Positions 1-49,786 of a stretch of 49,786 nucleotides of DNA are shown here, piece after piece (positions within the stretch are counted from its first letter, which is position 1; every line of letters starts with the position of its first letter). This DNA is from an uncultured Litoreibacter sp. (GTDB lineage: Bacteria > Pseudomonadota > Alphaproteobacteria > Rhodobacterales > Rhodobacteraceae). The DNA is taken from positions 1-49,786 of the forward strand of contig CANLUY010000006.1 of NCBI GenBank assembly GCA_947494435.1, given 5' to 3'. A model generated the notes under the pieces. It ran no database searches, was not told where the DNA came from, and worked only from the letters and a program-made list of their open reading frames with translations. The translations under genes and the position numbers were made by a program.

Positions 1-757
1 GTGGCTTTACGTATTGCTCGGCGTCATCCTTGCAGGCCCCGTCGTCTGCGGTATGAGCCAAGCCGCAAACGACTGGTGCGACCGGCATGTGGACGCGATC
101 AACGAGCCGGACCGCCCTATTCCATCAGGACGCATTCCCGGGAGGTGGGGGCTTTACATTGCGCTCGCGATGTCGCTGCTGTCGCTTTTCGTTGGCTATC
201 AACTTGGCCCTTGGGGCTTTGGCGCGACCATCGTGGGTGTGCTGGCGGCTTGGGCCTATTCGGCTGAGCCCGTCCGTCTGAAACGCTCCGGCTGGTGGGG
301 TCCGGGTCTCGTGGGTCTGAGCTATGAAAGCCTGCCATGGTTTACAGGTGCTGCCGTTCTGGCCGCTGGTGCGCCCAGTTGGCCGGTCATCATCATCGCG
401 TTGATCTACGGCATCGGCGCGCATGGGATCATGACGCTGAACGATTTCAAAGCGCTTGAGGGTGACACGAAAATGGGCGTGAACTCCCTGCCCGTCACGC
501 TTGGCCCCGAACGCGCGGCACGTGTGGCCTGCTGGATCATGGCTGTGCCTCAGGTCGCCGTGATTGCCTTGTTGTTTATCTGGGACAAGCCGTTCTACGC
601 GCTTGGCGTCGCGCTTGTTCTGGCTGGGCAGCTTTGGGCCATGCGCACGCTGCTCAGCGATCCGAAAGCCCGCGCGCCTTGGTATAATGGCACGGGCGTT
701 ACGCTTTATGTCTCCGGCATGATGATTGCCGCCTTCGCGCTCAGGGGGATTGCATGA
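1..757 (+). CDS. bchG: Bacteriochlorophyll synthase BchG (3' part; 5' part at 49567-49786)
   Basis: Membrane prenyltransferase that esterifies bacteriochlorophyllide a with geranylgeranyl (or phytyl) diphosphate, the step before BchP. The frame enters the window at base 2 and ends at 757. Joined to the piece beginning at ATG 49567 it gives 299 residues, the usual BchG size. The UbiA-type Asp-rich signature is visible (N-D-x-x-D-R-x-V-D-A-I-N-E-P-D-R-P-I-P-S-G-R, bases about 68-138), followed by several hydrophobic helices. The stop overlaps the next start as ATGA (754-757), indicating translational coupling. The gene is split only because the circle was opened here. Identification is secure. 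Confidence 0.97.
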   Translation, partial: WLYVLLGVILAGPVVCGMSQAANDWCDRHVDAINEPDRPIPSGRIPGRWGLYIALAMSLLSLFVGYQLGPWGFGATIVGVLAAWAYSAEPVRLKRSGWWGPGLVGLSYESLPWFTGAAVLAAGAPSWPVIIIALIYGIGAHGIMTLNDFKALEGDTKMGVNSLPVTLGPERAARVACWIMAVPQVAVIALLFIWDKPFYALGVALVLAGQLWAMRTLLSDPKARAPWYNGTGVTLYVSGMMIAAFALRGIA

Positions 758-2037
758 CATTGTCCTGGGGCCAGATCGCACGGCTTGGCTTGGTGCAAAT
801 GGCCCTTGGGGCGATTGTTGTGCTGACCACATCGACCCTGAACCGCCTGATGGTGGTGGAGTTCGCTCTGCCCGCGATCCTCCCCGGTATTCTGGTCGGC
901 CTGCATTACGGCATTCAACTGTCGCGCCCCAAATGGGGGTTCCTGTCCGACAATGGCGGCAACCGCACGCGCTGGATCATCGGCGGCATGATCGCCCTTG
1001 CCTTAGGTGGCTTCGGTGCCGCCGTCGGCGTCACGCTGTTTGCCAATGGCTTCTGGGGTCCACTTCTGTTCTCAGTCCTTGCCTACGCGCTGATCGGTCT
1101 GGGTGTCGGCGCATCCGGCACCTCCCTTCTTGCGCTTCTGGCGACAGCCACAGCCCCGCATCGCCGCGCAGCGGCGGCGACAATCACATGGCTGATGATG
1201 ATTTTCGGCATCGCGTTGACCGCTGGGCTGGCCGGATCCTTCCTCGACCCCTACTCCCCCCAACGCTTGCTGACGGTCGTCGCTGTTGTCGTGACAGGCG
1301 CAGTTCTGTTGACCATCGTCGCCGTGGGCCGGATCGAGCGCAAAGTCACCGCCGCAAAGCCTGAGGCCGCTATGCCCTTCATGGACGGCATGCGGGAGAT
1401 CTGGGCTGAGCGGAAAACCCGCAACTTCACCCTCTTCGTGTTCCTGTCGATGAACGCCTATTTCATGCAGGAGCTGATCCTAGAGCCCTTCGCGGGCCTT
1501 GTCTTCGATTTCACACCCGGCCAATCCACCTCGCTGAGCGGTGCACAAAATGGCGGCGTCTTCGTCGGCATGCTGACCGTTGGGATCGCGGCGACCGGCC
1601 TGAAATGGGGCGCGCTCAGGTCATGGGTGATCGCAGGATGCTTGGGCTCTTGCGCTATTCTGGGCTGCATCAGCTTGGCGGGCACTGGCGCGCTCGCTCT
1701 GCCGCTGACGCCCCTTGTCGTGGCCCTCGGCTTCTTCAACGGCATGTTCGCAGTTGCCGCCATCGGCGCAATGATGGCGCTCGCCTCGCAAGGGCGGGGT
1801 CGCCGTGAAGGCACGCGCATGGGCCTATGGGGCGCCGCGCAAGCCATAGCCGCGGGGTTTGGGGGTCTGACCGGGGCTGCCGCTGCCGATCTTATGCGCC
1901 GCTTCATGGAAGATGGCCCGGCCTTTGGCGCTGTGTTCGCCTTCGAAGCCGCTTTATTTTTCGCGTCCGCCCTGATGGCGGCGCGTGTTATGGAAAACAG
2001 CCGCGCGCAGCCCGCGTCGCTTGTCCCAGGGGAGTGA
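754..2037 (+). CDS. PucC-family membrane transporter-like protein (ORF428/Bch2 type)
   Basis: A 427-residue, very hydrophobic protein of the PucC/LhaA/Bch2 branch of the major facilitator superfamily. Members of this branch help to deliver bacteriochlorophyll to, or assemble, light-harvesting complexes. It starts with a hydrophilic stub and then about 12 membrane segments; PKWGFLSD follows the second segment. Its place between bchG and bchP matches the ORF428 gene of Rhodobacter clusters, which is the basis for the subfamily call. It overlaps bchG by four bases. A second, more distant paralogue, lhaA, is encoded at 36171-37601. The exact substrate is not shown by the sequence. Confidence 0.9.
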   Translation: MTLSWGQIARLGLVQMALGAIVVLTTSTLNRLMVVEFALPAILPGILVGLHYGIQLSRPKWGFLSDNGGNRTRWIIGGMIALALGGFGAAVGVTLFANGFWGPLLFSVLAYALIGLGVGASGTSLLALLATATAPHRRAAAATITWLMMIFGIALTAGLAGSFLDPYSPQRLLTVVAVVVTGAVLLTIVAVGRIERKVTAAKPEAAMPFMDGMREIWAERKTRNFTLFVFLSMNAYFMQELILEPFAGLVFDFTPGQSTSLSGAQNGGVFVGMLTVGIAATGLKWGALRSWVIAGCLGSCAILGCISLAGTGALALPLTPLVVALGFFNGMFAVAAIGAMMALASQGRGRREGTRMGLWGAAQAIAAGFGGLTGAAAADLMRRFMEDGPAFGAVFAFEAALFFASALMAARVMENSRAQPASLVPGE

Positions 2038-2042
2038 GACCT

Positions 2043-3221
2043 ATGTATGATGTCGTCGTCGTTGGCGGAGGGCCATCCGGTGCCACAGCCGCAGAAGACC
2101 TTGCACGATCCGGCCATAAGGTCGCGATGATCGACCGCGATGGGCGGATCAAGCCCTGTGGCGGTGCGATCCCGCCGCGTCTGATCACAGACTTCGATAT
2201 CCCAGACAGCCAGATCATCGCACGGATAAGTACGGCGCGCATGATTTCCCCCACGCAACGGGCAGTCGATATTCCGATTGAGAACGGGTTCGTCGGCATG
2301 GTGGATCGCAAGGATTTCGACCCGTTCCTGCGCGAACGCGCGGTCGCTGCCGGTGCTGTTGGTCTGACAGGCACCTTCCGGCGCATTGATCGCGAGGGTG
2401 GCAAAACCTCCGTCGTCTATCGTGACAAAGCCAGTGGCGAGGAAGTGAGCATCGACACCAAGCTGGTGATCGGTGCCGATGGTGCGCGTTCTAACGTGGC
2501 AAAAGCCGAAGTGCCGGGTGGCGAAAAGATCAATTACGTCATCGCCTATCACGAGATTATCGAGGCCCCGACGGCAACAGAACAATATGATCCGCTGCGC
2601 TGTGACGTGATCTATGACGGGGCTATTTCACCCGATTTCTACGGCTGGGTCTTCCCGCATGGCAAATCCGCCAGCGTCGGCATGGGTACCGGTATCGACG
2701 GCGTCGATCTGAAACAAGCGACTGCAGATCTACGCGCGGCCTCGGGCCTCAGTGAGTGCAAAACCCTGCGCAAAGAAGGCGCGCCTATCCCGCTGCGTCC
2801 GATGGACAAATGGGACAATGACAAGGATGTGGTGCTGGCCGGTGATGCGGCGGGCGTCGTGGCCCCCTCCTCCGGCGAAGGGATTTACTACGCGATGATG
2901 GGGGGCCGCTTGGCGGCAACGGCTGCAAGCGCCTGTCTTGCCAGCGGTCGGACCAAGGACCTGCAACTGGCGCGCAAGCTGTTCATGCGGGAGCATAAGA
3001 ATGTTTTCAAAGTGCTCGGTGCGATGCAAAACGCCTATTACCGCAGTGATGAACGCCGCGAACGGTTCGTGTCGCTATGCCATGATGTCGACGTGCAGCG
3101 CCTGACCTTTGAGGCCTATATGAACAAGAAACTTGTCGCCGCGAAACCGATGGCGCATCTAAGGATCGGCCTGAAAAACCTCGCGCATCTGACGCGCTTG
3201 ATCGCGCCCACGCGTGTCTGA
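2043..3221 (+). CDS. bchP: Geranylgeranyl reductase BchP
   Basis: Flavoprotein of 392 residues that reduces the geranylgeranyl tail of bacteriochlorophyll a to phytyl. The N-terminus has the Rossmann dinucleotide motif VVGGGPSGATAAE (about residues 6-18), then IKPCGGAIPPRL. A second FAD-contacting stretch, GDAAGVVAPSSGEGIYYAM, lies near residue 275. ATG 2043 is chosen over upstream in-frame codons because it directly precedes the Rossmann strand and has a purine-rich ribosome site (AGGGGAG) 12 bases before it. It follows the PucC-like gene by five bases and overlaps idi at its stop (TGATG). Confidence 0.96.
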   Translation: MYDVVVVGGGPSGATAAEDLARSGHKVAMIDRDGRIKPCGGAIPPRLITDFDIPDSQIIARISTARMISPTQRAVDIPIENGFVGMVDRKDFDPFLRERAVAAGAVGLTGTFRRIDREGGKTSVVYRDKASGEEVSIDTKLVIGADGARSNVAKAEVPGGEKINYVIAYHEIIEAPTATEQYDPLRCDVIYDGAISPDFYGWVFPHGKSASVGMGTGIDGVDLKQATADLRAASGLSECKTLRKEGAPIPLRPMDKWDNDKDVVLAGDAAGVVAPSSGEGIYYAMMGGRLAATAASACLASGRTKDLQLARKLFMREHKNVFKVLGAMQNAYYRSDERRERFVSLCHDVDVQRLTFEAYMNKKLVAAKPMAHLRIGLKNLAHLTRLIAPTRV

Positions 3222-3754
3222 TGGAGATCATGATCCCCGCCTGGGTCAACGGCACGTTGCAACCAGTCGAAAAACTGCTGGCCCATCAAAAAGGCTATAA
3301 GCATAAGGCTGTGTCCGTCTTCGTTATGTCCGGCGGAAAGATCCTGATCCAGCAACGCGCGGCGCATAAATACCATACGCCCCAGCTTTGGGCGAACACC
3401 TGCTGCACCCATCCCGAGTGGGAGGAAGACCCCCATCACTGCGCCATCCGCAGGCTGGATGAGGAGCTTGGCATTCAGGGCCTTTACCCGAAATATCGCG
3501 GCACGGTCGAATACCGCGCAGATGTCGGCAACAATTTGATCGAGCATGAGGTGGTCGAAGTGTTCGTCGCTGAAACGAGCCTGACACTGCCCATGTCACC
3601 TAATCCTGACGAGGTGATGGGCACGCGTTGGGTGGACTACCTGCAGCTCAAATCCGAGGTGCGAAAGACGCCGGAGCTGTTCACACCTTGGCTCGACATC
3701 TATCTGGCGCGCCATAGCGATCTGATTTTTGGCGATCTTGTTCCTGCAGAATAA
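3221..3754 (+). CDS. idi: Isopentenyl-diphosphate delta-isomerase, type I
   Basis: Nudix-fold enzyme of 177 residues interconverting IPP and DMAPP, which supplies prenyl units for carotenoids and the bacteriochlorophyll tail. Visible signatures are the Cys/His metal and active-site segment WANTCCTHP (about residues 60-68) and the Nudix-like helix RRLDEELGIQG (about 80-90), with the catalytic Glu in VEYRADVGNNLIEHEVVEVF. Its ATG overlaps the bchP stop by one base. It ends three bases from the converging dxs stop, with no room for a terminator between them. Confidence 0.95.
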   Translation: MEIMIPAWVNGTLQPVEKLLAHQKGYKHKAVSVFVMSGGKILIQQRAAHKYHTPQLWANTCCTHPEWEEDPHHCAIRRLDEELGIQGLYPKYRGTVEYRADVGNNLIEHEVVEVFVAETSLTLPMSPNPDEVMGTRWVDYLQLKSEVRKTPELFTPWLDIYLARHSDLIFGDLVPAE

Positions 3755-3757: not shown

Positions 3758-5671
3758 CTAGAGATCAGCCTTCAATGGCTCGATCTTAACACCTGCCGCC
3801 TGCAATGCTGTTGCTGCAATATCCGTGGCCGTCAGCCCCGCATCCGCATACATCGCATCTGGTGCCGCCTGATCAATGAAGCGATCGGGCAGGGTCATCG
3901 TGCGCACGGCCAAGCGGCCATCCAGCTGTCCGGTATTGGCCAGCTCATGCAGCACCATCGCGCCGAAACCGCCCTGCGCACCCTGCTCTATCGTGATCAG
4001 CGCGCGGTGTTTTTTGGCAAGCTTCCGGATCAGATCCGTGTCGAGCGGTTTGGCAAAGCGGGCGTCGGCAACGGTCACTGTGACGCCTTGCGCCTCCAAT
4101 AACTCCACCGCTTTCAAGGCCTCGCCCATATGCGCGCCAAAGGACAGGATCGCGATGTCTGACCCTTCGCCCAGGATCCGGCCTTTACCGATTTCCAGCA
4201 CTTCGCCCACCTCAGGCATCTCGACGCCTTCGCCCTCGCCGCGCGGGTAGCGGAACGCAATCGGGCCGCTGTCATGCGCGGCGGCTGTGGCCACCATATG
4301 CACAAGTTCGGCCTCATCCGATGCGGCCATGACGGTCATATTCGGCAGCGCCGTCAGGTAGCCCACATCGAAAGCGCCTGCATGGGTCGCGCCATCCGCG
4401 CCAACCAAACCGGCGCGGTCAATCGCAAAGCGCACAGGCAGGTTTTGCAAAGCGACATCATGAACAACTTGGTCGTAGCCGCGTTGCAAGAAGGTCGAAT
4501 AAATCGCGCAAAACGGCTTTAGCCCTCCCGCAGCAAGACCAGCAGCGAATGTCACACCATGCTGTTCGGCCATGCCAACATCAAACATCCGCGCGGGGTG
4601 CGTTTGTGCGAACACATCCATTCCCGTGCCGGACGGCATAGCGGCAGTGATGCCGACGATCTTCGGATCTGTCTCGGCCAGTTTGCTCAAAGCCTGGCCG
4701 AACACCTTCGTATAGCTGGGCGCATTCGGGCGAGACTTGGCCTGCGCGCCACTGCTGACATCGAATTTGGAGACGCCGTGATATTTGTCAGCCGAGGTTT
4801 CCGCCGGCGCATAGCCCTTGCCTTTCACGGTGCAGCAATGGATCAAAACCGGACCGGTCGCCCGAGTACGGGCGGAGCGCAATACACCCAAAAGCTGATC
4901 CATATCATGCCCATTGATCGGGCCAATGTACTGAAATCCCAGCTCTTCGAACAACGTCCCTGAGGCCCCCACAGCACCCGTCACCATCTGGCGCGCGCGC
5001 CGTGCGTGGTCGCGCATGGGGCCGGGCAAAGCGGCTTCGAACCCTTCGGCCATGTTCTGCAAATTTCCCAAAGGCGAGGCATAAAGACCGGACAGATATT
5101 TCGACATCGCGCCTACGGGTGGGGCGATGCTCATCTCATTGTCATTCAGGATTACAAACATGCGGCGACCCTCGTCGCTCGCATTGTTCATCGCCTCATA
5201 GGCCATGCCTGCACTGATCGAGCCGTCGCCAATCACCGCTATCGCGTCACCTGTCGGCTGGCCCATATCGCGCGCCACTGTGAAGCCCATCGCGGCGGAA
5301 ATGGAGGTGGAGGCATGGGCGGCACCGAATGGATCGAACTCCGACTCGGCGCGTTTGGTGAAGCCGGAAATACCGCCCTCCTGACGCAGAGTGTGCATCC
5401 GGTCGCGGCGGCCGGTTAGCACTTTATGCGGGTAACATTGATGCCCCACATCCCAGATCAGCTTGTCGCGCGGTGTGTCAAAGACAGCGTGCAAAGCGAC
5501 GGTCAGCTCAACAACGCCAAGCGAAGAACCAAGGTGGCCACCGGTTTGCGACACGGCTTCTATCACCTCACCACGCAGCTCATCTGACAACTTGGACAGC
5601 TCTAAATCCGTCAAAGATTTCAGATCAGAAGGGGAGGACACACGGTCCAGAATAGGGGTGGGACGGGTCAT
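3758..5671 (-). CDS. dxs: 1-deoxy-D-xylulose-5-phosphate synthase
   Basis: Thiamine-diphosphate enzyme of 637 residues that condenses pyruvate and glyceraldehyde 3-phosphate, the entry step of the MEP isoprenoid pathway. It shows the [15 protein letters not shown] segment (about residues 74-88), the TPP/Mg motif [17 protein letters not shown] (about 149-165), and YPRGEG in the transketolase-C half. Length is normal for the family. In Rhodobacter-type clusters a dxs copy closes the puf operon, as here; it follows pufX after a 212-base spacer with hairpins. A chromosomal copy probably also exists, so this is likely a dose-raising copy (inference). Confidence 0.96.
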
Positions 5672-5883: not shown

Positions 5884-6126
5884 TCAAACCACTTTCGTGT
5901 CGTCCACGATCAGGTTGTATGAGAAGGGCGTCGGGTCTTCTGTCTCACGGGATTCTTCAGGCAGCAGGTTGTTGCCAATCCACATGAGGGCCAGAATGAT
6001 CACCAAAGAGACTGTGCAGAAGATGAAGGCATAGCCCGCACCTTTCATATGCAGCATCAGCCCTTCTTCTCTTAAGCGCGCGACAGGATCACCGTCAGTA
6101 CGCAGGTATTCGCGGTCATGTGACAT
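5884..6126 (-). CDS. pufX: PufX, LH1 ring/quinone-channel polypeptide
   Basis: An 80-residue single-span membrane protein. In Rhodobacteraceae PufX opens the LH1 ring for quinone exchange at the reaction centre. It has a charged N-terminal stretch, the typical MKGAGYA entry to the membrane segment (about residues 27-33), one helix to about residue 50, then a hydrophilic tail. PufX diverges fast, so the call relies on size, the MKGAG motif, topology and position after pufM. A good ribosome site (AGGAG) precedes ATG 6126. Its presence and the absence of pufC place the cluster in Rhodobacteraceae. Confidence 0.92.
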   Translation of the reverse strand: MSHDREYLRTDGDPVARLREEGLMLHMKGAGYAFIFCTVSLVIILALMWIGNNLLPEESRETEDPTPFSYNLIVDDTKVV

Positions 6127-6137
6127 TGATCGCTCTC

Positions 6138-7067
6138 CTATTGATCTAGCGGCGCGAAGCCGTGTTCTTGCGCCCAGACGAACCAGTTATCAACAACTGT
6201 GCCGGTCAGCAGAATTCCGATACCGCCTGTCAGCGTTGTCAGAACCGCGAACCACCATGCCCAGCGGTGAATACCTTCCATCGTGGCGTTGAAGCCCATG
6301 GTCCAGCGCCAGAACAGAGCTGCACGCTCGGATGCTGTGCCCCGGTCGACGATCTGTTCGATTTCACGCTCACCACCGTAACGGCTGACCGCAAGGATCG
6401 TGGCACCGTGCATCGCAAACAGCAGAGCAGAGCCATAAAGGAACACAATGCTAAGTGCGTGGAACGGGTTGTAGAACAGGTTGCCATAGGTCAACGAAAA
6501 CAGGTTTGTCCAATCAAGGTGACTGAATATCCCGTACGGCACGGCTTCTGACCAGGATCCCATCAGGATCGGACGGATCAGACCCAGAACAAGGAACAAC
6601 CAGATCGCCGAAGCAAACGCCCATGAGACGTGCTTACCCATCCCCAGTTCTTCGGCGCGCAGGTAGGTGCGTATCCACCATGCACAGACAGAGATCAGCA
6701 AGAAGAAGGAGGATATGATCCACCAGCCTCCCTCAGCCAATGGGGCGAAGCCTAACCCATATTCCTCCGACGGGGGTTCAAGCGAGAACCAGAAGAGGTC
6801 GCGGATGAAGACACCGGGGTTGTAGCCCGCTTGCGCCCAGAAATTCATGCCGACGATAAAGAACCATGCAAAGCCGGTGGCCATAGCAACGACGCCGAAA
6901 GGACCAAGATAGATCGGACCAAGCTGTGCGTTGCCGAACAGACCCGCCAGTGTTGAGAAGCGCGCTTTCTTGGTGCGCTCCCGCTCCAGCAAGCCCTCCG
7001 GATCGACCCCCATTTCTGGGGGTCCTTGGACCTGCACTTGAGTGAAGATGTTTTGATACTCGGTCAT
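6138..7067 (-). CDS. pufM: Photosynthetic reaction centre M subunit
   Basis: Five-helix membrane subunit of 309 residues that binds bacteriochlorophylls, QA and the carotenoid of the type II reaction centre. Ligand histidines are in place: H183 in FSHLDW, H203 in NPFHAL, and H220 in LFAMHGATI, each one residue beyond the Rhodobacter sphaeroides numbering (182, 202, 219). The Fe ligand Glu lies in the ERAALFWRW region. Its start overlaps the pufL stop as ATGA (7064-7067). There is no sign of truncation. Confidence 0.98.
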
Positions 7068-7912
7068 CCGTTGACCCCCCCTTCAAGATCAGCCCACAGG
7101 GGCAGTTCGAGCCACCAATCCCACCAGCTTTCCCATGTGTCGAACCACACGGTGCCGGAGATGATGATACAAATCGCAGACCAAAGAACGGCCTGAAGTG
7201 CCAGGAACAAACCAAGGCGGTGAATACCCAATGGCCCGATCGAATAACCGATCAGATCGCGGAAATACGTGTCTTCGTGATCCGGTGTCGCAATCTTGTT
7301 GCCGCGCCCGGTATTGACTGCCGACAGGACCAGAGATCCGTGCAGCGCAAGCGCCAGACAGGTCGTGAAGAAGAACGTGATCGCGATCATATGCGCCGGG
7401 TTGTAGTGGAAGTTGCCATAGGCGTAGCCCACGTTGTTGACCCAATCGAGGTGGCTGAAAATCCCATAAGGGAAGCCATGACCCCAAGCGCCCAACAATA
7501 CGGGACGGAAGATCACCAATGTGACGTAAGCCAAGATCGCAATGCTGAACGCGAAGGGTACGTGATAACCCATCCCCAGCTTGCGGCAAATCTCAACCTC
7601 GCGCAGCGCCCAGCTTATGAAAGCGAAGGTCGCGCAGAGCGTCACGATCTGCCAAATGCCACCCTCAGCCAGTGGGGCCACACCCAAACCAACCTCAAGT
7701 GACGGCGGATCAATCGAGATCAGCCAAGGGTTCCACGTGTCGCCCAAAGCGGCCCCGTAGAAAATCATCAAGGTGCCGAGCACGGTGAAGAAGAAAGTCG
7801 TGACGCCGAAAAAGCCCACGAAATACGGTCCGACCCAGAAGTCGAATAGGTCACCGCCAATCAACGTACCGCCGCGTACACGGTATTTTCTTTCGAAGGT
7901 GAGCTGCGCCAT
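7064..7912 (-). CDS. pufL: Photosynthetic reaction centre L subunit
   Basis: Five-helix subunit of 282 residues carrying half of the special pair and the active branch to QB. Conserved residues are H154, H169, H174 and H191, matching L153, L168, L173 and L190 of Rhodobacter sphaeroides with a one-residue offset. E213-D214 match the QB proton-path residues L212-L213. The start ATG 7912 has AGGAG upstream and opens with [16 protein letters not shown], typical of the family. It is preceded by the pufA-pufL intercistronic hairpin and coupled to pufM. Confidence 0.98.
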
Positions 7913-7972
7913 CTTCTGTCTCCTCTTAGGTGGGGCACGTATTGCCGCGCACCCGTGTGTGTTCTTTGAATT

Positions 7973-8002
7973 GTTGCGGGCAAGGCCTGCCCCGCCCGCA
8001 AC
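7973..8002 (-). other. pufA-pufL intercistronic stem-loop
   Basis: A perfect nine-base-pair stem (GTTGCGGGC with GCCCGCAAC) around a 12-base loop lies 22 bases after the pufA stop and 61 bases before pufL. In Rhodobacter, hairpins at this position protect the pufBA segment from 3' decay, so LH1 is made in excess over the reaction centre. Position and strength suggest the same role here. There is no T tract, which argues against a terminator. Confidence 0.75.
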
Positions 8003-8023
8003 TTTTATTCATGCAAGCAGAGC

Positions 8024-8188
8024 TTACTCGCTGGCCTCTACGCCGAAGGCGCGTTGGAACCAGTTGGTCTCTGGATTGCTGAGCAGGACGAGGTGAATCA
8101 TCGCTGCGAGCAGAAAGAGGAAAACGCCCTGCGCCACGAACACGCGACGGGGGTCGAAGATCTGCCAGATCTTGTAGAACTGTGCCAT
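8024..8188 (-). CDS. pufA: Light-harvesting 1 alpha polypeptide
   Basis: A 54-residue antenna polypeptide of LH1. Translation of the minus strand begins [17 protein letters not shown], the standard LH1-alpha entry, followed by one membrane helix with the bacteriochlorophyll-ligand His at residue 32 ([10 protein letters not shown]) and a C-terminal NWFQRAFG segment. The ribosome site GGAGAGGA lies 15 bases downstream of the pufB stop. Length and motifs are canonical; it pairs with pufB to form the LH1 heterodimer. Confidence 0.97.
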
Positions 8189-8203
8189 ATCAAATCCTCT
8201 CCG

Positions 8204-8359
8204 TTACCAGCTGAACCAAGGCAGTTTGAAGTAGGTCAAGATGTGCGCCACTACTGCCACCGAAGTGAACAGGTAGAAGCCGCTCAAATAGACCGAGTGC
8301 AATTCCTGCGCTTGCTCGTCTGTCAGACCTGTGAAGGACAGGTCAGATTTATCAGCCAT
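8204..8359 (-). CDS. pufB: Light-harvesting 1 beta polypeptide
   Basis: A 51-residue antenna polypeptide beginning [21 protein letters not shown]21 and the ligand H39 ([11 protein letters not shown]) fit the LH1-beta pattern (H20 and H38 in Rhodobacter sphaeroides), and it ends with an aromatic PWFSW. A strong AAGGAG ribosome site sits eight bases before the ATG, stronger than that of pufL, which fits high LH1 stoichiometry. Confidence 0.97.
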
Positions 8360-8389
8360 ATCTTTTCTCCTTGAAAAAATCGTACTGAC

Positions 8390-8408
8390 GCCGCGCTCCC
8401 CCCGCGGC
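8390..8408 (-). other. Small GC hairpin in the pufB 5' leader
   Basis: GCCGCG and CGCGGC form a six-base-pair stem around a seven-base pyrimidine/purine loop, about 30 bases upstream of pufB. Leader hairpins in Rhodobacter puf mRNA hinder 5' decay; this could be an equivalent. It lies in the 151-base pufQ-pufB spacer, in which I see no further gene. Confidence 0.4.
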
Positions 8409-8510
8409 TGGGTTACGACAACGGCTCATCCGCTGCCCTAATCCACCACTCCGGGGGGGAATGGCGAACCTCGTGTAACCCATCGTCTCGACCGACGGAT
8501 TGAATGTCGT

Positions 8511-8738
8511 TTACGCTGAGAAGATTCTCGGCGTGATGATCTGCGCTTGGCTCCACGCAGATTTAATGGGACCACGCTCTGGAAGCTCCATGCGGCGTGC
8601 CGCACTCAGCACCCATGTCAGGATCGACAGCGGCAAGGTCGCCGCGAAGATCAGAGCAAAATACGCGTAATACTCGCGCATAGGCACGTGGCTGGCGCGC
8701 CGCTCCTTGACTGGTGTGTCATGTGTAAAATCGGTCAT
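8511..8738 (-). CDS. pufQ: PufQ, bacteriochlorophyll-carrier/assembly protein
   Basis: A 75-residue membrane protein with one hydrophobic span (about residues 24-46, [20 protein letters not shown]). PufQ lies between bchZ and pufB in Rhodobacter clusters and influences bacteriochlorophyll supply to the complexes. The family is short and variable, so the call combines position, size and the membrane segment preceded by MREYYAYF. Its start overlaps the bchZ stop as ATGA (8735-8738), so the bch genes run straight into puf. Confidence 0.92.
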
Positions 8739-10195
8739 AAGGCTCCTCCCGAAGCTGGTTGCAGTCCTTCGACGGTTTCCAAAACAACCCGCTCAGCCCC
8801 TTGATCGAGCGCACGTTTCTCTGCGGCGTCTCGAAGGGTTTTGGCGGCGGAAATCCGCGTCAGGATCGGATGGCTGGCAACAATTTCGTCCAGCTTAGCC
8901 TGGGCATCCGCATCCCAGGGGAAATCGCGTCGAAGGGTCGTTGGTGTCGCCTCCGCCGCGTCCATCTCGCTGCCCAAAGGCAGGATATGAAACAGTGAAT
9001 CAAACAGGCCATTGCAGACCTCTTGGACCAAATAGGTGGCCCCCGCATAGCCCATGAAGGGCGTGCCCGTCGCGCGTCTGATCGCGGCACCCGGGAAGCT
9101 TGCTGGGATAAAGGCCGGCGCGGGGCCAAAGCCCGCTTTCATCTCGGCCAGATACATTTTCTCATTGATCGAGCCCATGACGATCAGCGGCCGCTTCTGG
9201 TGCATCCAGGCGCGCACTTCGTCATTATTGGTCTTCTTGCCGCGCGTTCTGGCGACGGCAAACGCACAGGGCAGACCCAGATCATTCTCAAGGAAATTCC
9301 TGATGCCACGCGCATAAGTCTCGTTGGCCACAATCGCGAAAGACGCGGTTGCGAAGAAATCCTGCGTGACAGAGCGCCACAAATCCCAGACCGGTTTAAT
9401 GGTCGAATGCTTCTCCTGCTCGATGAACGGCTCAGGATCGAGCCCCAGCATATCGCCCAAGGTGCGCAGGAATTTCGTCGTGCTCTCAATCCCAATCGGC
9501 GCCTGCAGATAAGGCTTATTGAGCGCCTCGCACAGACCCCGACCAAACTCTCGATACATGCAAATATTCACATCGGCATTCACGAGGTTACGCATCTCAG
9601 CCACATGCGCGCCCAAGGGCATCACCATGTTGACCTCAGCGCCAATCCCTTCGACCAAACGCCGGATCTCGGCCAAATCAGATGGCATGTTAAACGTGCC
9701 ATACATCGGCCCAAGGATATTAACCCGAGGGGCAGCCCCCTCTTCGCGCTTCTTCTCCGGCGGCATCCGACCCTTGGTCATGCCAAATTCCGTGAAGATC
9801 CACGTCATCGCGCGATCTGCGCTTTCCCACTGATCTTCATCAATCGTGCGCGGCAAGAAGCGTTGAATATTGGTGCCTTGCGGCGTCACACCGCCGCCAA
9901 TCATCTCAGCAATGGAGCCAGTCACGACCACCGCAGGCAAAGCCGGATCAAGCGTCTTCCAAGCGCGTTTCATCGCGTCCTCGGTCCCCGATCCCATCTC
10001 GCCTTCGCCCAGACCTGTCACCACAATTGGCAACTCATGCGGCGGCAGCGCGTCTGTGTAATGCAGCACAGATGTCACCGGCAGGTTCTCACACCCGACA
10101 GGTCCGTCGATCACACATTGCAAGCCTTTGACGGCACAGAATGCGTAAACCGCACCCCAATACCCGCCTGCCCTATCGTGATCTTGCACTAGCAT
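8735..10195 (-). CDS. bchZ: Chlorophyllide a reductase subunit Z
   Basis: A 486-residue nitrogenase-like subunit which, with BchY, forms the catalytic component of chlorophyllide a oxidoreductase. That enzyme reduces ring B (C7-C8) and makes the bacteriochlorin. Cluster-ligand cysteines appear in FCAVKGLQC and [13 protein letters not shown] near the N-terminus. The start at ATG 10195 ([19 protein letters not shown]) is chosen because this is the conserved family N-terminus; a longer in-frame start at 10258 would add an unconserved stretch. It lies 91 bases after bchY and overlaps pufQ by four bases. Confidence 0.96.
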
Positions 10196-10286
10196 GGCAG
10201 CCCCCAGTTTTTCAGGGGCGTGCGAACGCGATTGGCTGCGCCATTCGCTGCCTCGCACCGTGGCGATTTTTGGAAAAAATACGCCA

Positions 10287-11849
10287 CTAAATCATCTCCG
10301 CCGCTTTGGCGGCCTTCGCGGCGCGTTCCAGTTTCTTGGCATTCAATGCGCGGAATTGAGGTTGCTCATTCGGCGCGCCTTCCCAGACGCCCGCAGTGTC
10401 TTCACGCCCGACGCCTTTGAAAAACGCGCGCATATGTTCCATGCGGTCTTTGTTCGCCATGGCCCCGTTGACGACCTGCGCCAGCGAGCCTGCACCTGCG
10501 ATCCCCATCAAGGGCCGCGCGGAAATCAGATTGGTGAAGTAGAGCGACGGGATGCCCAGCTCCTTGCCCTTTTGCACGACCGGGGTGGTGCCAATGGCCA
10601 GGTCAGGTTTGATCGCTTCCATCGCCGCGCAATCATCTTCCAGCGAGGCGCGGAACTTGACCTTCACGCCTTTGCTTTCCAGCCATGCGCAATCATCGGC
10701 GGACCATTCGGTTTTCGGACAGGCCGTGCCGACATAAGGAATTTCCGCGCCACTTTCGATGAGCAAACGTGCGACCAAAAGCTCGCTGCCTTCATAACCC
10801 GACAATGTGATCGTGCCCTTGACCGGCATCGACGCAAGCGCGCCCTTGATCGCGGGGAGGAACTGATTTTGCGCCGCCGCGACTTTGTCAGCGGGCAACC
10901 CGAACGCATCGCCAATACCCGCGAGCCATGCGGCTGTGCCATCATGACCGACAGGCGCAGAGCCAATGACAGGCCGACCCGCCGCTTGGAATTCACGCAC
11001 CGATGCGGTGTAGAACGGATGAATCGCCGCGACCGCACCGCAGTCCAGCGCCGCATAAAGCTCCCGCCATTCGCGGCACGGCACCACGGGTCCAACAGCC
11101 AAATCCAATGGCGCCAGCATTTGCCCGATCATCATCGGATCGGCAGGGAACATCTCGCCCAGTAATGACACTGTCGGACGGTCCGACTTGCCAGAGGCTG
11201 GCATTGCGACCGGCCCCGCTTCAATCTCTTTGCGCGCGTAGTTCAACATCGCGCCGGCCAAGACGTCTTTAGCTTCCGCATGGGTTGGAATGCCAAAGCC
11301 CGGCACATCAATGCCCACGATCCGCACGCCGTTGATCTCTTCCGGCAGCAAGCGCAATGGCACACCGGAGGCCGTTGGCACACACAGGTTCGTCACGACA
11401 ATCGCGTCGTATTTGTCGGGATCCGCCATGTCATGGACTGACTCGCGAATGTCCTCGAACAGTTTGCCTGTCACTAAGGTTTCCGAGTTGAACGGCACAT
11501 AACCGACAGAGCGGCGCGCGCCGTAGAAATGTGACACAAACGTCAGGCCATAGACGCAGCAGGCCGAGCCGCTCAGGATCGTCGCCGTCCGCTTCATCCG
11601 TAGACCTACACGCAAGGAGCCGAAAGCCGGGCACATGGATTGCGGCTGGTCATGCGGGCCTTGCGGATAGTCTTTCGCGTATTGATCCAGAATATCGGAC
11701 TTGCCCGCTGAACGCGCTGCATCCAACATTTCCGATCCGGAATGACAACCAAGCCCGCCCTCTGGCAAAGGCGCATCACGCCCTTCAACCTCCGTACCGG
11801 TTTCGACAGCCACATCAGCTGTCAGGTCATATGTGACCTCTCCCGTCAT
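10287..11849 (-). CDS. bchY: Chlorophyllide a reductase subunit Y
   Basis: A 520-residue nitrogenase NifD-like subunit of chlorophyllide a oxidoreductase, partner of BchZ. Conserved segments include [16 protein letters not shown] and [25 protein letters not shown] near residues 71-120, which carry the cluster cysteines. The C-terminus ends in a Lys/Ala-rich helix. ATG 11849 overlaps by four bases (ATGA) the stop of a small ORF that separates bchY from bchX, so bchY translation probably depends on reading of that ORF. Confidence 0.96.
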
Positions 11850-12040
11850 CCGCGTGCCCGCTTGTTGCAGGTCAGAACACTCTTCGCGACCAGCTCTTCA
11901 CTTTGGTGGCGCAGGTCTCTTGCAGCCTGACAAACTTTGTCCGCGTAAGACACGGCATGCCGTGACATCGCCACGCGCGTTTCCAGAGCCCGTAGACCTT
12001 GGTCAATATCTTCCAGTTGGTGCAGATCAAACATCTTCAT
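11846..12040 (-). CDS. Candidate small protein encoded between bchX and bchY
   Basis: An open frame of 64 residues from ATG 12040 ([15 protein letters not shown]) or 62 from ATG 12034. It overlaps the bchX end by 14 or 8 bases, and its TGA overlaps the bchY ATG as ATGA. It fills the whole 177-base bchX-bchY gap. The product is hydrophilic, helix-prone and rich in Leu, Ala, Arg and Gln, with two Cys (VCQAARD, LTCNKR). I do not recognise a family. Double overlap inside the operon is good evidence for translation. A role as a small accessory or coupling peptide for the BchXYZ enzyme is inference only. Confidence 0.6.
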   Translation of the reverse strand: MKMFDLHQLEDIDQGLRALETRVAMSRHAVSYADKVCQAARDLRHQSEELVAKSVLTCNKRARG

Positions 12041-16122: not shown

Positions 16123-16146
16123 GTGTCTCTCCCTGACAGTCTTTAA

Positions 16147-16164
16147 TGTAATGTATTGCTGACA
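16147..16164. promoter_or_regulatory. PpsR/CrtJ site, crtE side of crtE-crtD
   Basis: TGTAATGTATTGCTGACA fits TGT-N12-ACA. It lies 25 bases upstream of crtE and overlaps a TACATT hexamer on the minus strand that could be the crtE -10, with TTTACA 16 bases away as -35. Confidence 0.82.
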
Positions 16165-34114: not shown

Positions 34115-34138
34115 GTTGAAAGTCCCTTTGGTTGATGT

Positions 34139-34618: not shown

Positions 34619-34619
34619 A

Positions 34620-35264: not shown

Positions 35265-35315
35265 GTCTCTCGTCCCTGTTTTGCGCGCCTTTGGCGAGAA
35301 GGCCCGGGTGGTGAA

Positions 35316-35344
35316 CCGGCGCGACGGGTGACCGTGCGCGCCGG
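35316..35344 (-). other. puhA-puhB intercistronic hairpin
   Basis: CCGGCGCG and CGCGCCGG pair, and inside them ACGG and CCGT pair around a four-base loop, with one bulged G. The result is a very stable stem of about 12 pairs seven bases beyond the puhA stop. There is no T tract. It probably protects puhA mRNA or lowers expression of the assembly genes downstream, comparable to the hairpin after pufA. Confidence 0.65.
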
Positions 35345-35351
35345 GGCCGGT

Positions 35352-36125: not shown

Positions 36126-36170
36126 GTTGGTGTCCTCCGTAGTGTTGGGCGTAGTGTCTTGTGTTGCGGG

Positions 36171-37601: not shown

Positions 37602-38266
37602 GGGCGGAACTCCAACGCGTTGGAGATGTAGAAGCCTGATGTGACCCGTTCGACATTTCTGAGTGTGCCTGTGGGCAAGTTTCTGGCCAAACGGTCGGGT
37701 GAGTGCGGCACCATCGTAGGGGACCGATCAGAGCGCGGGAACAGTTTGCCGACACGCCACATCGCCATCAAAAGCGGTGTGCGCGGCGCTACGGTGAAAA
37801 CCATCGTGTTGCGCAAGCGCGGCTCGATCTTCGTCAGAATGTTGGCGATGTCATCGGCGGAATAGTAAATCATCGAGTCCATCGCGACGATGTAATCGAA
37901 GACGCCAAGTTCGGGATCCAGCATATCGCCCGCTGTGAAAACGGTTGATCCGGGCAAGTCTTTCGGCGCACGTTTCTTAGCGATATCAATGAGTTGTGGT
38001 GAAATATCGACACCAACAACGTCAGCGCCACGCGCAGCCAGTTCGACCGCCAAGGCGCCCGTACCACACCCAGCATCCAAGATCCGCATGCCATTCAGGT
38101 CAGCGGGCAGTTGATCAATCAACACGTCACGCATCCGGTCACGACCCGCACGCACGGTCGCACGAATCCCAGAAACGGGAGCGTCTGATGTCAGACGCTC
38201 CCAAGTCTTGGTCGCTGTGCGGTCGAAATAGGTTTCGACGTTATCGCGTGTGGCCTCGTAACTCAT
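37598..38266 (-). CDS. bchM: Mg-protoporphyrin IX methyltransferase BchM
   Basis: A 222-residue SAM-dependent enzyme methylating the C13 propionate of Mg-protoporphyrin. SAM motif I, LDAGCGTGALAVELAARG, lies near residue 63, followed by VVGVDISPQLIDIA; the N-terminal VETYFDRTATKTWERLTSD is family-typical. Its start follows the bchL stop with no gap, so the two are cotranscribed. Confidence 0.96.
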   Translation of the reverse strand: MSYEATRDNVETYFDRTATKTWERLTSDAPVSGIRATVRAGRDRMRDVLIDQLPADLNGMRILDAGCGTGALAVELAARGADVVGVDISPQLIDIAKKRAPKDLPGSTVFTAGDMLDPELGVFDYIVAMDSMIYYSADDIANILTKIEPRLRNTMVFTVAPRTPLLMAMWRVGKLFPRSDRSPTMVPHSPDRLARNLPTGTLRNVERVTSGFYISNALEFRP

Positions 38267-46024
<7,758 letters not shown>

Positions 46025-46081
46025 TCTTCCCCCCTGAAGGTGTCCTGCTATTTGGTAAAATTTGTCAGTTACACACGCATG

Positions 46082-46286: not shown

Positions 46287-47138
46287 ATGTCACAACAGGA
46301 ATACTTTCGGCATCCGAAAGTGATTGCGAAGGTCAATGGATTTGCCTTGCGCGCCCTGACTGTTGTTGCGTCCGAAATGAGAAGTCCTGTAAACGACAAT
46401 GTCAGGCCGTCCGGTCCGTCTGAGGAGGAAGTGTTGGAAGCTCTTTTGCAAGCTGTGTGCGATCCCGACCGCTCGCGGTTTGATCAGGCCGTCGCCCAGT
46501 TTCTTGGCAGAGGCACCACAGCGGAAGATATTGCCAACCACCATGTGCCAACGGTCGCGCGTGCCTTGGGTCAGGCTTGGCTGGACGATCGTCTGGAGTT
46601 TGCGTCAGTGACAATCGCCTGCGCGCGGTTGCAGGGATATTTGCGAACTAAAGGGCTACAATGGGCGGAAAAAGCCAGCCTTGGCCGTTTGCCAACGTCG
46701 AATGTTCTGCTTGTTGTGCCCGATTTTGAACAACACACATTGGGTGCAACCTTGTTGGCAGGTCAACTGCGCGCCCAAGGCGTCTGGGTGACCTTGCAAT
46801 TGAATGTGCGCACAGATGAGATCGAACGGCTGGTGGCGCAACGAAAATACGACGCGGTTCTGATTTCTTCGTCGAGGAACCAAACACTTGAATTGCTGGA
46901 GCCTTTCGTCTCTAACACTCGAAACGGTGCGTCAAACGCGCCGATTGTCATTGGTGGTAACGTTCTGGAACAAACGCCAGACGTATTGAGTGAAACAGGC
47001 GCAGATTTCACCGCAGGAAATTGGCAAAGTGCGTTGGAGATTTTCGATCCCAAACCTTTGCAGGAAGAGGCCGATTTTGTCGGTAGCAGGGAACGATTTA
47101 TGAGTGCGGACGCTCTCAGGCTGGAACCCAAACCATGA
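46287..47138 (+). CDS. ppaA: PpaA/AerR cobalamin-dependent antirepressor
   Basis: A 283-residue regulator that counteracts PpsR/CrtJ in response to light and cobalamin. A helical cap region (about residues 45-125, with LGQAWLDDRLEFASVTIACARLQGY) precedes a B12-binding fold with VVPDFEQHTLGATLLAGQL; His150 in EQHTLG is the expected cobalamin-contacting residue. Its stop overlaps the ppsR start as ATGA (47135-47138), so antirepressor and repressor are made together. Confidence 0.93.
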   Translation: MSQQEYFRHPKVIAKVNGFALRALTVVASEMRSPVNDNVRPSGPSEEEVLEALLQAVCDPDRSRFDQAVAQFLGRGTTAEDIANHHVPTVARALGQAWLDDRLEFASVTIACARLQGYLRTKGLQWAEKASLGRLPTSNVLLVVPDFEQHTLGATLLAGQLRAQGVWVTLQLNVRTDEIERLVAQRKYDAVLISSSRNQTLELLEPFVSNTRNGASNAPIVIGGNVLEQTPDVLSETGADFTAGNWQSALEIFDPKPLQEEADFVGSRERFMSADALRLEPKP

Positions 47139-48550
47139 TGTCCCAAGGTGATCAGACCTGGACGAGTGGTCTTGTGCCAATGATCGAACCAGAAGTGGTA
47201 AGCGAAATACTGGCGCGTATTTCCGATCTCGGGTTGGTCGTGTCTAAAGTTGGTAAGGTGCTCGGTGTCCTCACAAACCCGACTTTTCGAATTGAAAATG
47301 ACCTGTCAGCTTGGGAAGGCAAGCAGTTGCAGGACGAGCTAACGGTCGAAAGTATCCCGAAGTTCGAGGCACGCTTGAGAGAGTTCGTTGGCGGAGACGT
47401 TGGCGTTTTTCCACTTGAACTGAATCATTGCGCGCGCGGGTCAAACCCCGAGTTTCCGATGCGCTATAGCTTTCACCAGCTAGGTCAGGATGGCACAATT
47501 TTGATGCTGGGCAGCGATTTGCGGTCGACGGCGGAAATGCAGCAGCAGTTGGTTTCCGCACAGATTGCGTTGGAAAAAGACTATGAGGCGCAGCGTGACC
47601 ATGATCTGAAATTCCGTGTGCTGATGTCGGCCACAGAAGAGGCCACGCTGTATATCTCAGCGAATACGGGGCAGATCATCGACGGGAATGCCGCGGCTGC
47701 AGAACTGTTTGGAAAATCACAGACTGAACTCACCGGCCAGACATTTGCTGACGAGTTCGACATGAAGTCGCGCGAAAATCTGTTGGATCGGCTCGTTGCG
47801 TCTGCCGCTGATCAATCCGCCGCGCCCCTCTCCGCGACCACGCAGAAAGTTGAGGCATCGGTCTTGATCGAGCCTACACTGTTCCGGACCTCTGGCGAGC
47901 AAATGCTGCTGTGTAAGATCAAAATGGCGCAGGGTGCACAAACACGCTCTGACAGCCTAGAAGAAAACCTAACACAGCTTTACAAGACCGGCGTCGATTC
48001 AATCGTGTTCGTTGGTCTCGACGGGAATATCCTGACTTGCAACGATGCGTTCCTAAATCTTGCAGATGTCACCAACGCCCAAGGTGTTAAAGGCCGCGCA
48101 TTGGCGGAATTCCTCAGCCGCGGATCCGTCGATGTGAATGTCATCCTCGAAAATGCAAACCGTACCGGTTCCATGAGGCTCTATGCGACGAAGACCCGAA
48201 GCGAGCTTGGGGCAGATCGTACAATCGAAATTTCCACCAGCCGGTTGAACGCAGCGGGCGAAACTGTGTTTGCTTTAGTGATCCGCGATGCTAGCCGTTT
48301 CGATTCTGTCAGGCCACCGGCATCGCAGGTGACCGATGTCGATATGCGCTCCGTCATTGAGTTGATCGGCGGCCAGTCGCTGAAAGATATTGTCGCAAAG
48401 ACCACAGACGTGGTTGAGAAAATGTGTATCGAAACCGCTGTGGAGATGACATCGAACAACCGTGTGGCTGCCGCCGAAATGCTTGGGTTGTCTCGTCAAT
48501 CTCTCTACGTGAAACTCCGTAAATACGGTCTGCTCAGCAAAGACGGATAA
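47135..48550 (+). CDS. ppsR: Photosynthesis repressor PpsR/CrtJ
   Basis: A 471-residue transcription regulator: an N-terminal domain, a Q-linker helix (about residues 130-150), two PAS domains (about 155-265 and 285-395) and a Fis-type helix-turn-helix at the end (NNRVAAAEMLGLSRQSLYVKLRKYGL). Cys431, just before the HTH (EKMCIETAVEM), matches the redox-sensitive Cys of the family. It represses bch and crt genes through TGT-N12-ACA sites, eleven canonical copies of which lie on this plasmid near genes if the unlikely dxs match is excluded the count is nine. Confidence 0.95.
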   Translation: MMSQGDQTWTSGLVPMIEPEVVSEILARISDLGLVVSKVGKVLGVLTNPTFRIENDLSAWEGKQLQDELTVESIPKFEARLREFVGGDVGVFPLELNHCARGSNPEFPMRYSFHQLGQDGTILMLGSDLRSTAEMQQQLVSAQIALEKDYEAQRDHDLKFRVLMSATEEATLYISANTGQIIDGNAAAAELFGKSQTELTGQTFADEFDMKSRENLLDRLVASAADQSAAPLSATTQKVEASVLIEPTLFRTSGEQMLLCKIKMAQGAQTRSDSLEENLTQLYKTGVDSIVFVGLDGNILTCNDAFLNLADVTNAQGVKGRALAEFLSRGSVDVNVILENANRTGSMRLYATKTRSELGADRTIEISTSRLNAAGETVFALVIRDASRFDSVRPPASQVTDVDMRSVIELIGGQSLKDIVAKTTDVVEKMCIETAVEMTSNNRVAAAEMLGLSRQSLYVKLRKYGLLSKDG

Positions 48551-48563
48551 GCGCGTCTTTTTT
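48539..48563 (+). terminator. Intrinsic terminator overlapping the ppsR stop
   Basis: AAAGACG and CGTCTTT form a seven-base-pair stem around an eight-base loop that contains the ppsR TAA (48548-48550). The right arm runs into six T residues in a row (48558-48563). This is the only hairpin in the window with a convincing T tract. Confidence 0.6.
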
Positions 48564-48649
48564 GATCCCTGCTACGAGTTAACATAACGCGACTTATGCG
48601 GATCGCGAAAAAAGTTGGATTTAAGTTCGACTCGGACTAACTTCTTTTC

Positions 48650-48666
48650 AAGTATTGCCAATACTT
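48650..48666. promoter_or_regulatory. Perfect palindrome before the cobalamin-type protein gene
   Basis: AAGTATTG-C-CAATACTT, two perfect eight-base arms around one base, ends 16 bases before ATG 48683 and touches its ribosome site (AGGGACGGAG). It does not fit the PpsR pattern. It could be an operator for another regulator or an RNA element controlling translation. Confidence 0.5.
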
Positions 48667-48682
48667 AAAGGGACGGAGCGAC

Positions 48683-49501
48683 ATGACTCGCGACTTTGAT
48701 GCATTCCATCAAGGTATCTACGAGCAGTCTTTCGAGGAAATTAGGACCCTCAAAGGAAAACTGCCTGAGGATGCAGTGATCTCGCTCGCGCGCGAGGTAC
48801 TTCGGCGTGTCGCCGAACGTGCGACGGTGATCAAAGTTGATGCCCCGTCACCCATAGAAACACAAATCGAAGAGCTGGCGCAGGCGTTGATTTCACACGA
48901 TCCGCATGCGGGTGCTAACTTGATCCGAACCGCGCGCGCAGATGGCGCAAGCCTTGAAGAGGTTTATCTCATCTATCTGGCTGAAGCAGCGCGTTTACTG
49001 GGCATCTGGTGGGAAGAAGACCGCATTTCATTGGTCGACGTAACTGTTGGGACAGGCCGCATCTACGCCATCATCCGTGGCCTTGCGAAGATTTTCCCGC
49101 TGGCGATCTATAAAGGCCAAAAATCCGCAATGTTCACTGTTGTGCCAGGTGAGACGCATACGATCGGCATCAAGATGGTCACCGATCTGTTCCGCAAAAA
49201 CGGGTGGGATATTGACCTGAAGATCGAACCTGATCCGGATAGTCTTGCTGAAGACATTCGGATGACCAAGCCGCGGATCGTGGGTTTGTCAGCCGGCGGA
49301 GAGCATTCAATTCCAACCTTGGCAAAGCTTATCATCGGCATTCGGATCAATTCCCCTGCGACTGCGGTTCTTGTCAGTGGTCAGGTCGTCAAAGACTCGC
49401 CTGAACTGGTACGCCTCATGGGTCCTGATGCCACAGCGTTCGAATTTGATGAGGTCGAGGTTGAAATGGAGCGCCTTTGGCAGATGACCGAACCGTCTTG
49501 A
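48683..49501 (+). CDS. Cobalamin-binding-type (SCHIC-like) regulatory protein, ORF276 type
   Basis: A 272-residue protein with a helical cap (about residues 55-135, containing LLGIWWEEDRISLVDVTVG) and a B12-binding fold (about 146-265) with PGETHTIGIKMV; E157-T-H159-T-I-G resembles the ExHxxG/DxHxxG cobalamin motif. It lies between ppsR and bchG, where Rhodobacter clusters carry ORF276. It is a distant paralogue of PpaA two genes upstream. A role in light/B12 control of photosynthesis genes is inferred from family and context only; it has no visible DNA-binding domain. Confidence 0.82.
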   Translation: MTRDFDAFHQGIYEQSFEEIRTLKGKLPEDAVISLAREVLRRVAERATVIKVDAPSPIETQIEELAQALISHDPHAGANLIRTARADGASLEEVYLIYLAEAARLLGIWWEEDRISLVDVTVGTGRIYAIIRGLAKIFPLAIYKGQKSAMFTVVPGETHTIGIKMVTDLFRKNGWDIDLKIEPDPDSLAEDIRMTKPRIVGLSAGGEHSIPTLAKLIIGIRINSPATAVLVSGQVVKDSPELVRLMGPDATAFEFDEVEVEMERLWQMTEPS

Positions 49502-49529: not shown

Positions 49530-49546
49530 CTTGATGGAGTCAATAG

Positions 49547-49564
49547 TGTAAGGCTAAGCTTACA
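49547..49564. promoter_or_regulatory. PpsR/CrtJ site abutting the bchG start codon
   Basis: TGTAAGGCTAAGCTTACA fits TGT-N12-ACA and is part of a 22-base palindrome (eight-base arms AGTGTAAG and CTTACACT) at 49545-49566, ending directly before ATG 49567. It occupies the place where a ribosome site would be. Confidence 0.82.
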
Positions 49565-49566
49565 CT

Positions 49567-49786
49567 ATGTCAGCCTCCGAGTCCCTTCACGCAAGACGAC
49601 TGCCCGAGCCCGCAGCTATGCTGCGGCTGATTAAGCCAATCACGTGGTTTCCCCCGATGTGGGCTTACCTGTGCGGCGTGATTTCGTCTGGTGTCTTACC
49701 AAGCGGTCAGTGGCTTTACGTATTGCTCGGCGTCATCCTTGCAGGCCCCGTCGTCTGCGGTATGAGCCAAGCCGCAAACGACTGGT
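49567..49786 (+). CDS. bchG: Bacteriochlorophyll synthase BchG (5' part; continues at base 1)
   Basis: The first part of bchG: it opens MSASESLHARRLPEPAAMLR and runs through LIKPITWFPPMWAYLCGVISSG, the usual BchG N-terminus and first helix. The frame continues past the window end into base 2 of the window when the 77-base terminal duplication is merged. No Shine-Dalgarno is visible at this ATG; an internal ATG at 49618 (MLRLIKP) is an alternative, but family members include residues before it. Confidence 0.95.
   Translation, partial: MSASESLHARRLPEPAAMLRLIKPITWFPPMWAYLCGVISSGVLPSGQWLYVLLGVILAGPVVCGMSQAANDW
49710..49786 (+). repeat. 77-base terminal duplication of bases 1-77
   Basis: Bases 49710-49786 are identical to 1-77. 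The bchG frame reads through the join without a shift. The length equals a common assembler k-mer (77), so the simplest explanation is the overlap left on a circular contig, not a real duplication. Confidence 0.95.

Follow-up and report, generated by a model that had tools for sequence, protein, structure and literature searches.

The route by which phototrophy passes from one bacterium to another is still an open question, with plasmids proposed as its vehicle. Small replicons devoted to the photosynthesis gene cluster (PGC) are already in print: in passages of PMC6739100, those of Oceanicola sp. HL-35 (44 kb), J. pohangensis (49.5 kb), and Shimia sp. wx04 (54 kb) are termed streamlined, and pACLA_53 of Algirhabdus (2025) is, in the part of PMC11943960 that describes it, a circular PGC plasmid of 53,157 bp. 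Passages of PMC6052148 already report that the replication module of PGC plasmids holds a fixed position, and those of PMC6739100 on module types name DnaA-like I and a single RepB-III only. Here, the window analyzed was the whole 49,786-bp contig C6 of an uncultured Litoreibacter sp. (NCBI GenBank assembly GCA_947494435.1, contig CANLUY010000006.1), whose draft genome (G000) comprises 12 contigs and 3,893,140 bp and is 99.97% complete. This contig reads as a ring carrying a complete PGC of the PufX type together with the only hemE gene of its host, and the host chromosome retains a locus that lacks a PGC where close relatives have one.

The first 77 bases of the contig are identical to the last 77, and based on this terminal overlap it was read as a circle of 49,709 bp, across the join of which the frame of bchG (299 aa) stays open. 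We counted 48 genes on the ring, comprising the 44 in a first gene list plus pufA, pufB, pufQ, and a 68-codon open reading frame (ORF) between bchX and bchY. The gene count and family scans confirmed the division given by the initial annotation into 45 PGC genes (>80%) and three replication and partition genes, and this separate replicon with its own Rep, ParA, and ParB falls within the class of streamlined PGC plasmids (Liu 2019). Coding sequence accounts for 94.3% of the ring with the four small genes (pufA, pufB, pufQ, and the 68-codon ORF) excluded, and the largest gene-free stretch, with these genes counted, is the 396 bp from parA to rep. All 48 genes were scanned against NCBIfam or Pfam (bchG via its 2–757 piece), and the families that they matched included none for transposases, relaxases, type IV secretion, or toxin-antitoxin systems. 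Four genes had no match in the library used, namely a 98-aa ORF, the 68-codon ORF (of which a longer reading was scanned), puhB, and bch2, the last two being named from homology and gene order. No tRNA was found on the ring. The relaxase or type IV secretion genes that would mark a conjugative or mobilizable plasmid were absent from the ring, oriT and transfer genes elsewhere in the genome not having been sought, and the scan of its 48 genes gave no evidence of self-driven movement. The GC content of the ring is 57.4%, vs 53.7%–57.0% in five 20-kb chromosomal stretches. The absence of cargo beyond photosynthesis and replication was borne out by the terminal overlap, gene content, and family scans, with the qualification that hemE, hemA, dxs, and idi within the cluster are genes of general metabolism; hemA and dxs are second copies, the others being on contigs C2 and C1, respectively. 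The host chromosome lacked a PGC of its own, as pufL/M (PF00124) matches occurred on C6 and nowhere else in the host genome. Taken together, the sequence is that of an apparently independent 49.7-kb replicon predicted to supply the whole photosystem.

hemE is needed for heme. The copy on the ring (29540–30574, - strand; TIGR01464, 413 bits) overlaps the replication initiator gene by 4 bp and is the only one in the host genome. Exactly one copy was found in 20 of the 21 genomes of the genus and none in the remaining one (57% complete), and of 16 other genomes, 15 had one copy and one had two. Among the relatives' hemE loci read, 12 of 15 were on contigs of 0.64–3.85 Mb, and the ring accordingly carries a core gene of the kind by which chromids are recognized. 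Because the sole hemE sits on the ring, the host probably cannot lose it. In kind and size, and in a replication slot common to other PGC plasmids, the ring could pass for a streamlined photosynthesis plasmid like any other, gained and lost without constraint, with hemE aboard by chance; this is unlikely, however, as the host has no other hemE copy and its chromosomal locus, described below, shows loss of hemE itself. In S. sediminilitoris (G022:C4) and Sulfitobacter 538A (G032:C9), the sole hemE shares a contig with pufM and a rep homologue, and therefore capture of heme genes by photosynthesis plasmids may be wider, or even common. In Shimia and J. donghaensis, hemE is on another contig than the PGC.

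The emptied chromosomal locus (G000:C1:1077001-1097000) is continuous inside a 2.05-Mb contig and contains no PGC, holding instead genes 05–08, an idi paralogue, a cycA-like gene, hemC, hemF, and genes 13–18. Between the same flanks, two congeners (G015 and G017) have the arms of a PGC with hemC-hemE-hemF in the middle, collinear in order and orientation, and a third (G018) matches on the side that its contig holds. The same PGC-hem linkage was found on short contigs in G013 and G010, so that, with G019, six congeners have a PGC with linked hemC, hemE, and hemF. The cluster of G019 is split into two chromosomal halves ~40 kb apart, with hemE-hemC-hemA in one and hemF adjoining bchO in the other. 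PGCs of the PufC group (G007, G008, and G020) lie between the same flanks without hemC, hemE, or hemF, and the hem genes are sited elsewhere in the nine other members of the genus read (G001, G002, G005, G006, and G014, which have no PGC, and G007, G008, G016, and G020). The scaffold comparison behind these flanks covered G011 and G010 in part and omitted G016. Overall, pufLM was found in 12 of 21 genus genomes, host included; no pufX was found in five of these PGCs (G007, G008, G011, G016, and G020), and the six congeners with PufX-type PGCs are those with linked hem genes (four on contigs of 0.64–3.85 Mb, and G010 and G013 on short ones). G015 and G010 have extra ORFs between hemE and hemF within the PGC.

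In the DNA alignment, hemC and hemF of the host are 52 bp apart with hemE missing between them, and this spacer resembles the hemC-hemE spacer of relatives, scoring above all 200 shuffles for five of the six (G010, G013, G015, G017, and G018), with no excess over shuffles for a non-phototrophic control (G005). Of the genes left at the locus, the idi paralogue alone is matched by a ring gene, and the gene content of the ring is what the locus lacks. Because nothing on the ring matches the chromosomal cycA-like gene, cytochrome c2 must be supplied from elsewhere in the host genome. As these flanks hold a PGC and hem genes in relatives, and the hem genes are elsewhere in other members, the most plausible view of hemC-hemF at this locus is as remnants of a chromosomal PGC since lost. 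The host lineage seems to have had a chromosomal PGC earlier, with the ring replacing rather than introducing phototrophy here. In a search for relics of replication genes in the hemE-bchO gap of relatives, the Rep, ParA, and ParB of the ring had no match in ten genus scaffolds; the gap holds a hemF-like ORF, with further ORFs in two.

Ring and chromosome differ in ancestry. Gene matches were kept at ≥60% or ≥70% of the query covered in two comparisons, the second also requiring ≥35% of the best score; T. omphalii and G011 were omitted from the PGC trees, in which G010 lacks most of the puh arm. Based on the dxs region and rpoB (7,025 columns), the host chromosome branches within the group of six relatives (97/97, 97/99), with placement outside them rejected by the approximately unbiased test (p-AU 0.010). 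The puf and puh arms of the ring together fall outside all six (SH-aLRT 100), just outside the native clade, and nesting was rejected (p-AU 1.2e-5; DNA 0.005). The crt arm groups with Ascidiaceihabitans (G026), with nested placement (3.9e-5) and joining with all six (0.006) both rejected. The heme genes are likewise of mixed ancestry, ring hemE being in a clade not linked to PGCs (100/99) and host hemC and hemF in the PGC-linked clade (100/100). From these trees, we conclude that at least crt and hemE came from outside the native clade, as the ring in its entirety probably did. We regard the sole hemE and the emptied locus as firmly established and the direction of transfer as moderately supported.

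It is possible, if doubtful, that the host's own chromosomal PGC was cut out in place and gained a replication module to become the ring, with the crt arm and hemE exchanged later by recombination. The puf and puh arms of the ring are closest to the PGCs of the six congeners (up to 90% and 89% identity) and sister to them, the ring holds what the chromosomal locus lacks, and the puf arm alone does not reject such an origin. However, native nesting was rejected for puf plus puh and for crt, and one excision would not take hemE yet spare the flanking hemC and hemF. A third account, that a chromosomal PGC was assembled as a separate circle, draws on the 12-contig state of the draft, for which no reads were seen, but is very improbable given a locus unbroken in a 2.05-Mb contig without a PGC and a ring with its own replication module.

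Replacement by an incoming ring has several observations weighing against it. The assembly is a draft, and circularity rests on the 77-bp overlap without reads; the spacer of G019 does not pass the shuffle test; the dxs region by itself does not reject the host outside the six (p-AU 0.089), nor does the puf arm by itself reject a native place (p-AU 0.094); and the DNA tree of hemC and hemF cannot place the host copies (p-AU 0.43 for the six alone). Given the outcomes for the puf arm, the dxs region, and the hemC and hemF tree, recombination may instead have swept through the six relatives while the ring kept an older native version of puf and puh. The essentiality of hemE is itself predicted, and heme uptake could bypass it. 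Lastly, third-position GC skew in the bchG-bchP segment of the ring is -0.108, about equal to that of the cargo-laden plasmid of Sulfitobacter sp. S190 (-0.107), a value that does not point to a long history of replication as a cargo-free circle.

Weighing these results, we consider it probable that the resident cluster gave way to a ring, either one that came in with its own PGC or one put together with foreign crt and hemE segments, and that hemE made this ring indispensable. The ancestral state in the host lineage would have been a chromosomal PGC with embedded hemC, hemE, and hemF, like that of close relatives. A ring with an equivalent cluster and its own hemE would then have arrived, or have been assembled with foreign crt and hemE segments, followed by deletion of the redundant chromosomal PGC arms and chromosomal hemE, while hemC and hemF, being absent from the ring, would have stayed on the chromosome. 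Retention would be mainly through the only hemE, as ring loss would be expected to halt heme synthesis. We lean, with less assurance, toward a more specific account in which a cargo-free ring from a sister lineage displaced the resident PGC, its takeover of hemE locking it in place, and hemC and hemF were left behind as fossils, with capture of a housekeeping gene in place of a toxin-antitoxin system. The initial annotation had proposed a portable unit for acquiring phototrophy, an idea weakened by the lack of a mobilization gene among the 48 scanned, the lack of a ring match for the cycA-like gene, the sole hemE on the ring, and the apparent prior chromosomal PGC. The host may represent a late stage, in which the chromosomal PGC is gone, its locus is still recognizable, and the plasmid copy is the sole one, together with a heme gene. 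A sole hemE offers a testable reason for the persistence of photosynthesis plasmids without toxin-antitoxin or transfer genes, and suggests that such plasmids may replace phototrophy genes besides bringing them. We did not find a takeover of this kind, with a plasmid PGC replacing a chromosomal one and capturing hemE, in our searches of the open-licence literature without supplements.

The ParB-ParA-Rep module (26067–29543) is in the slot between bchO and hemE, the usual but not universal one of this class. It comprises a parB-like partition gene (26067–27146, - strand; TIGR03454 under its cut-off; 70% identical to ParB of Sulfitobacter S190), a parA-like partition ATPase gene (27150–28460, with the ORF open to 28526, - strand; PF13614, and TIGR03453 under its cut-off; 93% to S190), a gene-free stretch that is a candidate origin (28461–28856) with 18-nt direct repeats at 28602–28619 and 28656–28673, and a gene for an initiator with a DnaA_N domain (28857–29543, + strand; PF11638). 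Going by what is known of these families, replication would begin from this DnaA-like module, and ParAB would partition the ring. In the initiator tree, the ring clusters with Sulfitobacter S190, Sulfitobacter OXR-159, Pseudosulfitobacter, and a Marinibacterium record labeled DnaA-like-II, the one record on which that label for the ring's type rests, and this group is split 100/100 from the initiators of six other PGC plasmids, including R. litoralis. The module is neither of the two types named in passages of PMC6739100, a variable trait that is no bar to membership of the class, and would be a further type in the same slot, shared with S190 (PLSDB). S. alexandrii (NZ_CP018077.1), which is DnaA-like I in passages of PMC6739100, is in PLSDB replicon cluster 361, as is the DnaA-like-II-labeled Marinibacterium plasmid. 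Third-position GC skew is of opposite sign in the crt-bchO and hemA-lhaA segments, which flank the module, in 9/9 plasmids, weakly so in J. donghaensis; the reversal is absent in G017 and G018, and the segments differ by ≤0.05 in G007, G008, G016, and G020. The skew fits an origin at the module without proving one, because G015, G019, and the AM-384-L09 contig likewise show a sign change.

Around the ring from the join, bchG (3' part 1–757, 5' part 49567–49786, + strand; PF01040) is followed by bch2 (pucC-like), bchP, and idi (754–3754, + strand; assigned by order and identity to annotated relatives, idi by NCBIfam) and by dxs (3758–5671, - strand). The puf genes pufX, pufM, pufL, pufA, pufB, and pufQ (5884–8738, - strand; PF11511 for pufX, TIGR01115/TIGR01157, PF05398) include pufA at 8024–8188 and pufB at 8204–8359 (- strand, PF00556 twice) and pufQ at 8511–8738 (- strand). 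Next are bchZ, bchY, the 68-codon ORF, bchX, and bchC (8735–13984, - strand), the arm foreign to the native clade with crtF, crtE, crtD, crtC, tspO, crtB, crtI, and crtA (14104–22497), and bchI, bchD, and bchO (22494–26018, + strand). Beyond the module and hemE are hemA (30678–31892, - strand), puhE, acsF, the 98-aa ORF, puhC, puhB, puhA, and lhaA (31882–37601, - strand), and bchM, bchL, bchH, bchB, bchN, and bchF (37598–46030, - strand). The circle is completed by a ppaA/aerR-like B12-binding gene, ppsR, and a second B12-binding gene (46287–49501, + strand; PF02310, TIGR02040); the two B12-binding regulators flanking ppsR (46287–47138 and 48683–49501) are different and fast-diverging, with 34%–50% identity to those of PufX congeners.

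A minimal photosynthesis plasmid as such is not new. The ring would be smaller than any of the 11 PLSDB records with pufM (none under 77.6 kb, the smallest 77,607 bp), but the replicons of 44, 49.5, 53.2, and 54 kb in passages of PMC6739100 and PMC11943960 show that equal or smaller ones have been published, which overturns the novelty implied by the initial annotation. Like the ring, HL-35, wx04, J. pohangensis, and pACLA_53 are 44–54 kb and carry nearly all photosynthesis genes, as stated for HL-35, J. pohangensis, and pACLA_53 in the published passages describing them. Among plasmids with rep genes seen, a count to which S. alexandrii and R. ponti do not belong, parB adjoins bchO in 9/10 (the ring, Shimia, S190, S. 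guttiformis, S. sediminilitoris, 538A, R. litoralis, T. omphalii, and Thalassococcus S3), and the tenth, J. donghaensis, has its module in the same slot with cargo on both sides. The J. donghaensis contig (67,245 bp) ends between bchP and bch2, which are neighbors elsewhere, and may be a circle; its module in the bchO|hemA slot contrasts with the published view of Jannaschia PGCs as lacking a module insertion. Cargo breaks the gene cycle at different points among PGC plasmids, a pattern that fits a ring with later cargo and would relate Liu's types I and II to each other by circular permutation; no paper treating both PGCs and circular permutation was found in our searches of the open-licence literature without supplements, and no stretch matching pufM patterns was found in viral contigs. 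The bare form of the ring may be ancestral or stem from cargo loss. That PGC plasmids descend from a bare ring was left as an idea, as the skew shows no old bare circle, one group has an inverted arm, and Thalassococcus S3 departs from the order. The puf arm is inverted relative to the puh arm in the PGCs of Planktomarina, AM-384-L09, Planktotalea, and Ascidiaceihabitans.

The nearest comparisons show what is shared and what sets the ring apart. The S190 plasmid (145,674 bp) and S. guttiformis pSD118 have the same module order as the ring, and S190 also has the same module type (ParA 93%) and the 4-bp rep-hemE overlap; unlike the ring, both carry hemC and a gene for a c-type cytochrome, with large cargo lying between ppsR and bchG, and S. 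guttiformis has a RepB-family initiator. R. litoralis pRLO149_94 (NC_015741.1; circular in PLSDB, linear in passages of PMC6739100) has the same cyclic gene order and a rep module at bchO|hemA, but is of the PufC type, with cargo at idi|dxs, an annotation without hemE, and a module typed as DnaA-like I in passages of PMC6052148. Shimia WX04 contig 9, which ends between hemA and puhE (neighbors elsewhere) with no exact terminal overlap, is probably another bare ring. Its genes follow the identical cyclic order, rep lying between bchO and hemA, but its module is of another type (Rep 38% identical) and its hemE is on another contig, whereas the ring described here combines a DnaA-like-II-type module with the sole hemE of its host.

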